Position numbers and translations under genes: made by a program | Notes under the pieces: model-generated | What the model was told of the DNA's origin: nothing | Databases searched by the model: none | Seen by the model: only the letters and a program-made list of their open reading frames with translations | Shown: positions 46,908-57,169 of the stretch, piece by piece | Layout: every line of letters begins with the position of its first letter | Position numbering within the stretch: the stretch's first letter is position 1 | DNA from: Vallitalea guaymasensis | GTDB taxonomy: Bacteria > Bacillota > Clostridia > Lachnospirales > Vallitaleaceae | Length of the DNA: 64,000 nt | Reading direction: 5' to 3' | NCBI RefSeq assembly: GCF_018141425.1 | Contig: NZ_CP058561.1 | Span: 2,170,001 to 2,234,000 of the forward strand

Positions 46908-48959
46908 CTATTTTACTGGTATTGCTAATACCTGTCCTTCGTATATTTTATTAACATCCTTTATTACATCTTGGTTAGCTTCAACTATCTTATCGAAAGC
47001 ACTGGCATCTTTGTAGAATTGTTTAGCTATCTTAGCTAAAGTATCTCCTACTTTGACTACATATACTTTTGTATCTTCGTCTTCAATAGGTGGTAAGCAT
47101 TTTGCTGGTTCTGGAAGAACTAATGTGTCACCAACATTCAGTTTATTTCCTGTTTTTTTGAAGTAATCTTTATTAGCATTATAGATTGCTTGTTTCATTG
47201 AATAATCTCCATAATATCTTAATGAGATATTACCTACTGTGTCATATTGCTTGATTACAAGAGAAGTCGGCATTACCTTTTCTTCAACAGGTTGTTCTGT
47301 TTCCATATCTGCATCTTCAACTTTATCTGAACCTGTATTATCAGCATCTGTATTTTCATCAGCTTCATTATCTTGAGGTAAAGTATCAACAATACCTTCA
47401 TCTACTTCAACATTCTCTGTATCTTCTTTTTTATAATCTTGTAAATCAACATTTGACTTTGAAGTACTGTTTTGAATCTCTGTTTCCATTGCTTCAACAG
47501 TATCAAAAGTTTTGATATATATCTTTCCATCCTTCAGATTAGCAAAAGATTTAACTTCAGCTTGACCAATAGCATCTCTGATTATTTCAGCTAACTTATC
47601 ATCTCCACCTGATATTTTCAAAATAGGCTTTAGAATACTGCCTAGTCCAGGTATTTTATAAATCATATCAGTGATAATTACTCCAACATCACCATCACCC
47701 AAAACATCATTAATTGATACTTCATTAACTTCTTTTTTCTCTGAACCGTCTTTATTTGTTTTTGTATTACCATTCTTATCTTTTTTTGTATCTTCCATAT
47801 AGAATACAATATCATTGATGCTATCTTTTATCTTATCTCTAAAACTATTACTTATTGGATCTCCAAATGGTACTAATGAATTTATTCCATCTTGTATTCC
47901 ATCTGCAATCTCAAAAGCAATATCTGCTGGTTTCTCAAATTCATTTTTATAAATTACTTTAAGTTCATTAGCATCTGTATTGTTGATAGTAGCTACAAAT
48001 GCCACTTCTTCTTTATTAAGAGCTCTTTTTTCTGTAGGAATTTCTTTATCTCCAAGTTTTAATGTAACAGTAAAATCATCTCTAACACCATATTTTAGTC
48101 CAGTTATTACTAACATGTAATTTCCTTGTAGATTAGCTTTGTCACCTTTGATAGTGTATGTAAAATTCATTCCATCCACTGTATCACTTGGTACAATACC
48201 ATCTTTGTAAGGGTCTATATCAACTAATGTATACTCTTTTAATTCATCATTGATAGCATCTGCTACTTTATCCCCATAGATAAATGAATAAGGAAGTAGA
48301 TTAGCTACATATTCACCTATATTAATATCTCCTGATGTTTCAGAAACCTCTGTGATTACAAATTTACTCCAATATTCAGTAAGACCTATATCTTTTAAAG
48401 CCTTCTTAAGATTCTTTTCTGCTTCAAATGGTAATTTCTTTTCTTTAACATTATCTCCGTATGTAAAAGTCCCAGTTTCTGAAGTAAGTACATTTGTTGC
48501 TGTAGTTACATCCATATTCAATACTGGTAATAAATCAAGCTCACTCAATTCAGGATTGTCCTTTAATACGTCATCCATAAATTCTGATACATCATATATT
48601 GCATTCTTTGTCCAATCAGTTGCATCATCTATTGCGTTTTCTGTCCAGTCTGTCGCATCATCTATTGCGTTCTCTGTCCAGTCTGTCGCATCATCTATTG
48701 CATTCTCTGTCCAGTCTGTCGCATCATCTACTGCGTTCTCTGTCCAGTCTGTTGCATCGTCTATTGCGTTTTCTGTCCAATCCTTTGCATCATCTACAGT
48801 ATCCTCTACCGTATCTTTTACATCCTCTACAGTATCTTTTACTGTATCCTTTACTTTATCCCAAAATCCAGCATGTACTGATACACTTTGAGATAGTAAT
48901 AGAGTCGTTAATAACATTACTGAAACTGATTTCTTGATTACTTTTTTAGTCTTTTTCAT
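46908..48959 (-). CDS. Secreted LysM protein with hendecad repeats
   Basis: A 683-residue exported protein. Signal peptide 1-30 (SVSVMLLTTLLLSQSVSVHA). Residues 33-55 are short repeats (VKDTVEDVKDTVEDTV) and residues 56-121 six 11-residue repeats of DDATDWTENAI. A central domain of about 400 residues follows, which I cannot assign (EKNLKKALKDIGLTEYWSKF). An acidic linker leads to two C-terminal LysM domains (IKQYDTVGNISLRYYGDYSM and VVKVGDTLAKIAKQFYKDAS), which bind peptidoglycan GlcNAc. No hydrolase motif. Two BlaI-type operators upstream suggest induction under wall stress. AGGAGG precedes the ATG. Confidence 0.85.
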   Translation of the reverse strand: MKKTKKVIKKSVSVMLLTTLLLSQSVSVHAGFWDKVKDTVKDTVEDVKDTVEDTVDDAKDWTENAIDDATDWTENAVDDATDWTENAIDDATDWTENAIDDATDWTENAIDDATDWTKNAIYDVSEFMDDVLKDNPELSELDLLPVLNMDVTTATNVLTSETGTFTYGDNVKEKKLPFEAEKNLKKALKDIGLTEYWSKFVITEVSETSGDINIGEYVANLLPYSFIYGDKVADAINDELKEYTLVDIDPYKDGIVPSDTVDGMNFTYTIKGDKANLQGNYMLVITGLKYGVRDDFTVTLKLGDKEIPTEKRALNKEEVAFVATINNTDANELKVIYKNEFEKPADIAFEIADGIQDGINSLVPFGDPISNSFRDKIKDSINDIVFYMEDTKKDKNGNTKTNKDGSEKKEVNEVSINDVLGDGDVGVIITDMIYKIPGLGSILKPILKISGGDDKLAEIIRDAIGQAEVKSFANLKDGKIYIKTFDTVEAMETEIQNSTSKSNVDLQDYKKEDTENVEVDEGIVDTLPQDNEADENTDADNTGSDKVEDADMETEQPVEEKVMPTSLVIKQYDTVGNISLRYYGDYSMKQAIYNANKDYFKKTGNKLNVGDTLVLPEPAKCLPPIEDEDTKVYVVKVGDTLAKIAKQFYKDASAFDKIVEANQDVIKDVNKIYEGQVLAIPVK
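48597..48794 (-). repeat. Six tandem 33-bp repeats within the LysM gene
   Basis: Six in-frame units encoding D-D-A-T/K-D-W-T-E/K-N-A-I/V. The four central units are nearly identical at DNA level, pointing to recent expansion or contraction. The 11-residue period suits a hendecad coiled coil or LEA-like amphipathic helix. Confidence 0.9.
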
Positions 48960-49203: not shown

Positions 49204-49314
49204 GTCACTATGACTTTAATAAATGTTCAGTTACCTATAAATACTACCATAAATAGTTAAAGATGTAAATACTGTTTTAAATTATATCTATTAATAGCCA
49301 ATAGTCAGCTCACT

Positions 49315-49568
49315 CAGAAGAAAAAGAGTTTTGTGATGATATTGAAGGGTATTCTTAGCAAAATAGTATATGTATATGTGAAGTAGTGAGGCAGGACGCC
49401 GAACCCAGCTTTTAATCTGACAGCCCTACTGGACTGTCAGAAATAATAATGGACTCGATGTCCATTATTATTTGTTGAACTCAGGACGAGCAAGTAGCTG
49501 GCGTAACATATACATATACTATTTTGCAAAAACCAAGTCAGAACAAAACTCTTTTTCTGACTTACTTG
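49315..49568 (+). repeat. Structured palindromic repeat, copy 1 (candidate RNA)
   Basis: About 254 bases. The outer arm GAAAAAGAGTTTTGT (49320-49334) pairs perfectly with 49543-49557, and a second, perfect 22-bp arm (49358-49379) pairs with 49506-49527. Inside: hairpin GGC-AGGAC-GCC (49390-49400), hairpin CTGACAG/CTGTCAG (49417-49440), hairpin AATAATAATGGAC/GTCCATTATTATT (49442-49472) and hairpin CTC-AGGAC-GAG (49480-49490). The second copy lies at 56581-56835. No ORF is conserved. Strand is set by the AGGAC loops and is a guess. Confidence 0.85.
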
Positions 49569-56580: not shown

Positions 56581-56835
56581 CAGAAGAAAAAGTTTTTTGT
56601 GATCTATATTGAAGATTGCTTCGTGCAAAAGAGTATATGTATATGTGGAGTAGTGAGGCAGGACGCCGAACCCAGCATTTAATCTGACAGCCCTACTGGA
56701 CTGTCAGAAATAATAATGGACTCGATGTCCTTTATTATTTATTGAGCTCAGGACGAGCAAGTAGCTGGCGTAACATATACATATACTCTTTTGCAAATAC
56801 CACGTCAGAACAAAACACTTTTTCCGACTTACTTG
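56581..56835 (+). repeat. Structured palindromic repeat, copy 2 (candidate RNA)
   Basis: Second copy of the element at 49315-49568, same orientation. Inner arm 56625-56646 pairs perfectly over 22 bp with 56773-56794; outer arm 56586-56600 pairs with 56810-56824 with one mismatch. The core is almost base-for-base that of copy 1, with hairpins GGC-AGGAC-GCC and GCTC-AGGAC-GAGC. It sits between dnaX and the SRP RNA gene. Pair T49364:A49521 of copy 1 is G56631:C56788 here, and A49327:T49550 is T56593:A56817. Confidence 0.85.
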
Positions 56836-56907: not shown

Positions 56908-57169
56908 CCGTGCACCGCACATCGACAAATATTCATAAGCGTTACCTCTATAGTTAGCTCAAATCAGGCAACCTTACGGCACACAGGAGGTTCTACTTAG
57001 TGCTGCTTCCTTCCAGACCTGACACGGTTCATAGATTCCTGTTGCGTAAGACCCAATCATCATCGCCACTTTTAAAGGGCAGCCTTACAAAATAAATGCC
57101 TCCGATTGGCAACACCCCTGCTATAGCGGATTGCAGGTATAGGGCACCGCTAACTCCCCGGCTGCACGG
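56908..57169 (-). ncRNA. ffs: Signal recognition particle RNA (long, Alu-containing type)
   Basis: About 262 bases. The conserved helix 8 reads GTCAGGTCTGGAAGGAAGCA, with the GGAA tetraloop and the symmetric AGGAAG side that bind Ffh. The 5' part has the GCCGGGGAGTTAGCGGTGCC Alu-domain sequence of Firmicutes SRP RNAs. The ends CCGTGCA (57169-57163) and TGCACGG (56914-56908) close the molecule. It directs nascent membrane and secreted proteins to FtsY. Location upstream of dnaX and near tadA is common in Clostridia. Confidence 0.95.

Follow-up and report, generated by a model that had tools for sequence, protein, structure and literature searches.

The structured element that occurs twice in the window (the whole stretch of 64,000 nucleotides of Vallitalea guaymasensis DNA analysed here) is one member of a family for which this genome gives at least 93 matches. 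It is most likely a divergent, amplified relative of the TwoAYGGAY RNA (RF01731), as opposed to a new class, and most likely a CsrA-binding RNA. Directly observed were the copy number, a fold with paired changes, and two loops in which GGA is nearly invariant, as were the relation to RF01731 and the shared occurrence with CsrA. In the reading that we prefer, to which we assign a probability of about 0.55, this branch of the TwoAYGGAY superfamily would produce an RNA whose two sites receive one CsrA dimer and would function as a distributed CsrA sink.

Position and fold of the two window copies

Copy 1 (49315–49568) and copy 2 (56581–56835) both lie on the + strand of the window and share 92% identity across query positions 1 to 254. 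Direct reading of the window sequence bore out the coordinates proposed by the initial annotation and the bases of both compensatory changes that it had reported, T49364:A49521 versus G56631:C56788 in the inner arm and A49327:T49550 versus T56593:A56817 in the outer arm. Alignment of the copies placed the start of the repeat approximately 20 bases further to the left, at TAGCCA, a motif present with at most one mismatch at the left end of 34 of the 37 copies with both ends anchored (4 of 41 copies, in which an anchor was missing, had been left out beforehand). TAGCCA is located at 49295–49300 in copy 1 and is found only with two mismatches in copy 2. The predicted fold of copy 1 has an energy of -98.7 kcal/mol (z -11.21 relative to dinucleotide-preserving shuffles) and its reverse strand also folds (-100.4 kcal/mol, z -12.80). 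Fold energy alone cannot name the strand, since a palindrome folds on both. The two copies contain the following features.

49295–49314, + strand: additional left-hand sequence of copy 1 (TAGCCAATAG...), not included in 49315–49568; TAGCCA in 34 of 37 anchored copies
49315–49568, + strand: copy 1, long form, subfamily A (identity and fold)
49316–49333, + strand: outer left arm of copy 1, pairing with 49544–49561 (fold; copy alignment)
49358–49379, + strand: inner left arm of copy 1, pairing with 49506–49527 (fold; comparison of 53 copies)
49380–49389, + strand: junction GAAGTAGTGA of copy 1, which alignments A1 and A3 show to be conserved; the GA adjoining hairpin A is opposite the GA at 49401–49402, with possible tandem G-A pairs
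49390–49400, + strand: hairpin A of copy 1, loop AGGAC, candidate CsrA site 1 (loop GGA and stem covariation)
49405–49409, + strand: 5' strand of helix B, CCAGC, pairing with 49497–49501 (two-sided changes in 5 of 5 pairs of A3)
49410–49479, + strand: insert module of the long form, with hairpins at 49417–49440 and 49441–49473 (missing in short-form copies; presence or absence at orthologous loci)
49480–49490, + strand: hairpin C of copy 1, loop AGGAC, candidate CsrA site 2 (loop GGA and stem covariation)
49497–49501, + strand: 3' strand of helix B of copy 1, GCTGG (covariation)
49506–49527, + strand: inner right arm of copy 1 (fold; 53-copy comparison)
49544–49568, + strand: right end of copy 1 together with its outer right arm (fold; copy alignment)
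56581–56835, + strand: copy 2, long form, subfamily A (sequence identity)
56625–56646, + strand: inner left arm of copy 2, with a T-to-G change paired by an A-to-C change in the right arm (53-copy comparison)
56657–56667, + strand: hairpin A of copy 2, loop AGGAC (sequence; loop survey)
56684–56740, + strand: the two insert hairpins of copy 2, 56684–56707 and 56708–56740 (sequence search)
56747–56757, + strand: hairpin C of copy 2, loop AGGAC (sequence; loop survey)
56773–56794, + strand: inner right arm of copy 2 (53-copy comparison)

The core of the element is a three-way junction bearing two short hairpins with loops of the form C-A(N)GGA(N)-G. Its parts follow in the order arm, GNAGNAGTGA, hairpin A, GAAC, helix B, optional insert, hairpin C, helix B', CGNAA, and arm'. 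Two-sided changes were detected in all 29 pairs of alignment A3 (45 matches, 42 distinct rows), confirming the earlier proposal that the fold is kept through paired changes. In this alignment, 97.0% of 1200 cells pair, as compared to 60.5% in shuffles and 33 to 39% with slid partners, values that are to be read as effect sizes and not as P values as A3 was fitted to the structure and many of its rows are related. The arms differ wholly between subfamilies and the core is common to them, in agreement with the initial annotation, which had described the core as more conserved than the arms. We conclude that this is a real, strongly conserved structured element. G-U or U-G cells were few (15 of 1200 in A3, as counted from the pair table), a scarcity that copying of the arms at the DNA level could also produce. 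Strand asymmetry, considered as a sign of RNA-level selection, gave divergent results: one-sided transitions in the inner arm of 53 copies amounted to 7 G-U versus 0 A-C on the GGA strand, a small count, but G-T and A-C changes were balanced (134 to 130) when every predicted pair of the alignment was taken together, among them spurious pairs in the flanks.

Relation to TwoAYGGAY and to CsrA

The initial annotation had matched the element to no known family. This holds for the window itself, in which the Rfam scan detected no relevant family and the RF01731 model gave no match to the copies at its gathering cut-off (43 bits; for copy 1, none up to an E value of 10), but not for other copies in the same genome. 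RF01731 has six matches there, two of them above the cut-off (46.1 and 43.5 bits), and the latter two copies, of an intermediate type (L133 and L139), also match our core model. RF01731 also matched the element at 7 of 16 loci scanned in relatives, in all cases below the cut-off. The suggestion that the element may be a new structured RNA was right as to structure and is qualified by the existence of known relatives. Identification as an intron or a riboswitch found no support in Rfam scans of the window and of copy 1.

The resemblance extends to the architecture supported by covariation, which comprises an outer stem, a hairpin, and an inner helix bearing a second hairpin, and to the combination of two GGA-loop hairpins, a junction, and a long outer stem. 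TwoAYGGAY is likewise multi-copy, since 26 of the 36 genomes of a class-wide sample with RF01731 contained at least two matches (7 candidates scored per genome). The window copies differ from TwoAYGGAY by scoring below the model, by their AGGAC loops in place of AYGGAY, and by the insert module; their subfamily has expanded in two of the six Vallitalea genomes. We have not filed them as TwoAYGGAY members on account of score and loop, every shape feature tested being alike.

The consensus for CsrA binding is GGA in a hairpin loop. Both C-A(N)GGA(N)-G loops were present in 88 of the 93 genome matches, which thus carry GGA in the loops of at least two hairpins, as expected for a CsrA-binding RNA; the remaining five were four truncated or core-deleted copies and one variant loop. 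In alignment A3, GGA occupied 89 of 90 loops (44 of 45 for hairpin A and 45 of 45 for hairpin C), the exception being a truncated row. The AGGAC loops of the window copies are shorter than AYGGAY; ATGGAC, ACGGAC, ATGGAT, and ACGGAT loops were found in other copies and in relatives. In 749,073 bases of the genome, consisting of stretches chosen around elements and therefore not giving a genome-wide rate, 177 such hairpins were located in elements and 32 elsewhere, as compared to 15.65 in all following mononucleotide shuffling of the same bases. The initial annotation had missed these two loops, which point to CsrA. Their resemblance to the CsrA consensus is supported by the motif match reported in the available portion of the work of Gardner and Eldai (PMC4333381), who predicted that TwoAYGGAY is an sRNA of Clostridia that binds CsrA. 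As stated in the same portion, CsrA-sequestering sRNAs had in 2014 been identified only in Gammaproteobacteria, TwoAYGGAY being the proposed exception in Clostridia awaiting validation (PMC4333381). RF01731 and CsrB of E. coli both belong to Rfam clan CL00106.

The genome of V. guaymasensis encodes CsrA, as expected for the host of a CsrA-binding RNA: a single csrA gene (PF02599 match, 80.6 bits) is located beside fliW and two flagellin genes. In a set of relatives, CsrA was present in 14 of 14 genomes containing the element and in 102 of 146 overall, which is weak evidence for a link since CsrA is near universal in the family (21 of 22 members). In a sample of 391 genomes of the class, of which 125 have CsrA, RF01731 was detected in 36 genomes (31 with CsrA), model R2 in 9 (8 with CsrA), and one or the other in 37 (32 with CsrA). 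For this union, the nominal hypergeometric P of 7e-13 is too small, because the genomes are related. The five exceptions without a CsrA hit (G317, G357, G394, G411, and G453) come from assemblies that comprise 130 to 400 contigs; CsrA is present in other genomes of their genera.

Copy number, insert module, and copy history

Described as two-copy by the initial annotation, which is correct for the window only, the element has at least 93 matches to the core covariance model R1 (E 0.01) in the V. guaymasensis genome (5,626,074 bases, one contig), a lower bound as 150 of 3951 first-look candidates were scored. The DNA search of this genome revealed a long form of approximately 254 bases and a short form from which query positions 100 to 165 are missing. 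At least five subfamilies, or arm types, share one common core; three weaker DNA matches combined other arms with the same core, AGGAC being replaced by ATGGAC in both hairpins. In the set of relatives, R1 matched in 14 of 146 genomes, including all six members of the genus in the set and one genome from another family (G035), copy counts being lower bounds with 28 candidates scored per genome. Subfamily A was found by DNA search in only two of the six Vallitalea genomes.

The first insert hairpin has 31 matches in the genome (control, 0). Thirty of these are inside core-model matches and the 31st is in a copy that an insertion sequence interrupts. The absence of a free-standing insert among the 31 does not favour free mobility of the module, which we rejected, exchange between copies being simpler. 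Comparison with 1.25 Mb of a Vallitalea relative (G005) provided 30 syntenic loci with flanks 86 to 98% identical, one of which gave no segment. At these loci, G005 displayed both hairpins in 8 cases, a remnant in 15 (scored by eye), and no trace in 5; 2 were not scorable. At 23 of the 30 loci, the copy is thus older than the divergence of the two species, and the remnants reveal erosion by deletion, either in G005 or in both species. Because such deletion affects many orthologous sites, single copies look dispensable. The state of the insert differs at four of the eight intact pairs, the insert being restricted to V. guaymasensis at three and to G005 at one, and also at a ninth locus, which is truncated in G005. 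In genome G004, three copies have a different hairpin at the insert position. The insert therefore behaves as a changeable module, most simply explained by exchange between copies. On contig C74 of G005, the ortholog of G000:C1:464475 (G000 being the V. guaymasensis genome) contains a partial element in inverted orientation in the same intergenic gap.

The initial annotation had also raised the possibility of a MITE-like element. The copies are indeed dispersed and mostly intergenic, but classical MITE hallmarks were not found. Flanks compared from two left anchors gave no excess of words beyond 2 to 3 bases at fixed offsets that would indicate a fixed-length target-site duplication (34 of 37 copies for the TAGCCA anchor), the matches of the whole-element DNA search of the genome included no autonomous or protein-coding relative, and no unambiguous fresh insertion was seen among the 30 syntenic loci, as absence from G005 at five of them may also be deletion. 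These observations bear on the alternative that survives best, although we regard it as unlikely, namely a selfish palindromic intergenic repeat of the REP, BOX, or MITE type, the fold of which would serve copying by an unnamed enzyme. The GGA loops would then be needed by this enzyme or would recruit CsrA for the element's own benefit. The large number of dispersed matches, with at least five kinds of arms within a single genome, the detection of subfamily A by DNA search in only two genomes of the genus, and paired changes with few G-U intermediates, as templated copying of the arms would give, are all consistent with such a repeat. It is disfavored by the lack of the three hallmarks just mentioned and, on its own, leaves the CsrA link and the match to the CsrB clan unexplained.

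A cis-acting role appears improbable. Each copy would in that case be a leader or trailer enabling CsrA to control the mRNA of the neighboring gene, as would befit the Cis-reg type given to RF01731 by Rfam. According to crude ORF calling, 91 of the 93 matches are outside large ORFs; the downstream gene is on the same strand at 54 of these 91, and co-directional neighbors are more often both on the element strand (40) than both opposite (21), the remaining 30 being split. Copy 1 is itself 128 bases upstream of a same-strand ORF (by core coordinates). However, the downstream gene is on the opposite strand at 37 of the 91 matches, copy 2 included, and Weinberg et al. scored the motif as probably an RNA and probably not cis-regulatory (available portion of PMC2864571). 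Promoter-like sites did not exceed the shuffled expectation near copy 1 and none was clearly assignable to copy 2; a terminator was rejected for both window copies, no terminator-like site being found nearby on the element strand. A large bacterial SRP RNA gene (RF01854, 195 bits) is located at 56908–57169 on the - strand, approximately 70 bases beyond copy 2, and a 683-residue ORF at 46908–48959 on the - strand encodes tandem DDATDWTENAI-type repeats near the N-terminus.

The genome contains five full copies of an IS4-family element of 1656 bases (NF033592; PF01609). Four of these are inserted at an identical point of hairpin A, each in a different element (L307, L308, L309, and L310; G000:C1 near 2580524, 2043596, 1547257, and 368039) and are flanked by 10-base duplications (AGCCATGGAC, GTCCATGGCT twice, and GTCCTTGGCA). 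The fifth (L306), with duplication TTCCATAATC, is outside any element. These insertions, the folding of both strands, and the overall balance of one-sided changes would fit a DNA-level structure, such as a site on which insertion sequences land, or a DNA-processing structure in the form of a cruciform or a single-strand hairpin, but this is very improbable given that the loops keep GGA, that RF01731 is in the CsrB clan, that genomes with the family usually have CsrA, and that the few one-sided transitions of the inner arm were all G-U on the GGA strand.

A possible role in CsrA sequestration

If the family is a CsrA-binding RNA, as we favor, the + strand RNA of the window copies would form a long palindromic stem capped by the three-way junction, which would display the two GGA-loop hairpins in such a geometry that each could contact one half of a CsrA dimer. 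Transcription would result from read-through from neighboring genes or from promoters of the element itself. The at least 93 matches would together offer about 175 candidate CsrA sites, and their transcripts could form a distributed sink for CsrA, in addition to its protein antagonist FliW. The mixed orientation of neighbors, the decaying copies, the lack of a clear promoter or of a terminator-like site near the window copies, the 5 of 36 RF01731 genomes without a CsrA hit, and the AGGAC loop count against this reading.

A more specific version of the CsrA sink is tentative. According to it, a repeat family would have been amplified into a genome-wide CsrA sponge, in which about ninety palindromic elements would be compact two-site docks buffering CsrA in Clostridia-type bacteria. 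The docks would take interchangeable hairpin modules, of one kind in V. guaymasensis and G005 and of another in G004, and the modules would change between copies faster than the copies turn over. If true, a bacterial interspersed repeat family would be a distributed protein buffer.

The CsrB/RsmB and RsmX/Y/Z sRNAs carry many sites within one or a few sRNA genes. The present family shares their GGA-loop hairpins, and CsrB is in the Rfam clan of RF01731, but it has two candidate sites per unit and about ninety dispersed units. Multiplicity in 26 of 36 RF01731 genomes, and of at least 93 here, suggests that the family is to be read as a dispersed repeat and not as one sRNA gene. As dispersed intergenic folded repeats, the elements can also be likened, from general knowledge, to REP/BIME, pneumococcal BOX, and bcr1, to BOX by their modular interior, and to REP as the target of an insertion sequence, REP being targeted by IS1397. 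They differ from all of these in that their three-way junction covaries, their two GGA loops are nearly invariant, and relatives of the family occur across a bacterial class.

The copy number, the class-wide CsrA link, the presence or absence of the insert at orthologous sites, and the IS4-family hits on a conserved hairpin are new here, and the link over the 391-genome sample provides independent support for the TwoAYGGAY prediction. In the available portions of the open-licence literature on TwoAYGGAY and CsrA sponges, we found no earlier report of the class-wide link, no report of CsrA-titrating repeats or CsrA sponge RNAs in Clostridia, and, for TwoAYGGAY, no mention of copy number or of a binding test. 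The question of CsrA binding is testable in the genus, which includes a described isolate, V. guaymasensis L81 (available portion of PMC6163223).

Several minor observations concern the surroundings of the copies. Some intergenic gaps contain copies of different subfamilies separated by at most a few hundred bases, often in opposite orientation (G000:C1 1188209/1188418, 3501234/3501501, 3665359/3665576, 967371/967683, and 2515589/2515734). Another repeat, with aligned pieces of approximately 70 to 190 bases that are 80 to 95% alike, adjoins at least seven copies (G000:C1 210146, 2336024, 2735108, 2835896, 3186397, 3747559, and 1945245).

A search with the pattern AGTGAG-hairpin-GAAC identified 20 stretches, of which 13 were scored. 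Three match the core model (L147, L148, and L151). The ten that do not (L146, L149, L152, L153, L155, L159, L161, L163, L164, and L165) may be other CsrA-type RNAs or chance matches. Four of them, from Lachnospiraceae (L153, L159, L163, and L164), have AYGGAY-loop hairpins between AGTGAG and GAAC, near hairpins of the ACAAGGATGT or ACACGGATGC type, and are possibly another CsrA-type RNA. The 21-base motif AGTGAGCCACGGATGGCGAAC is present as an exact match in two genomes of Luteimonas, outside Firmicutes (L149 and L150).
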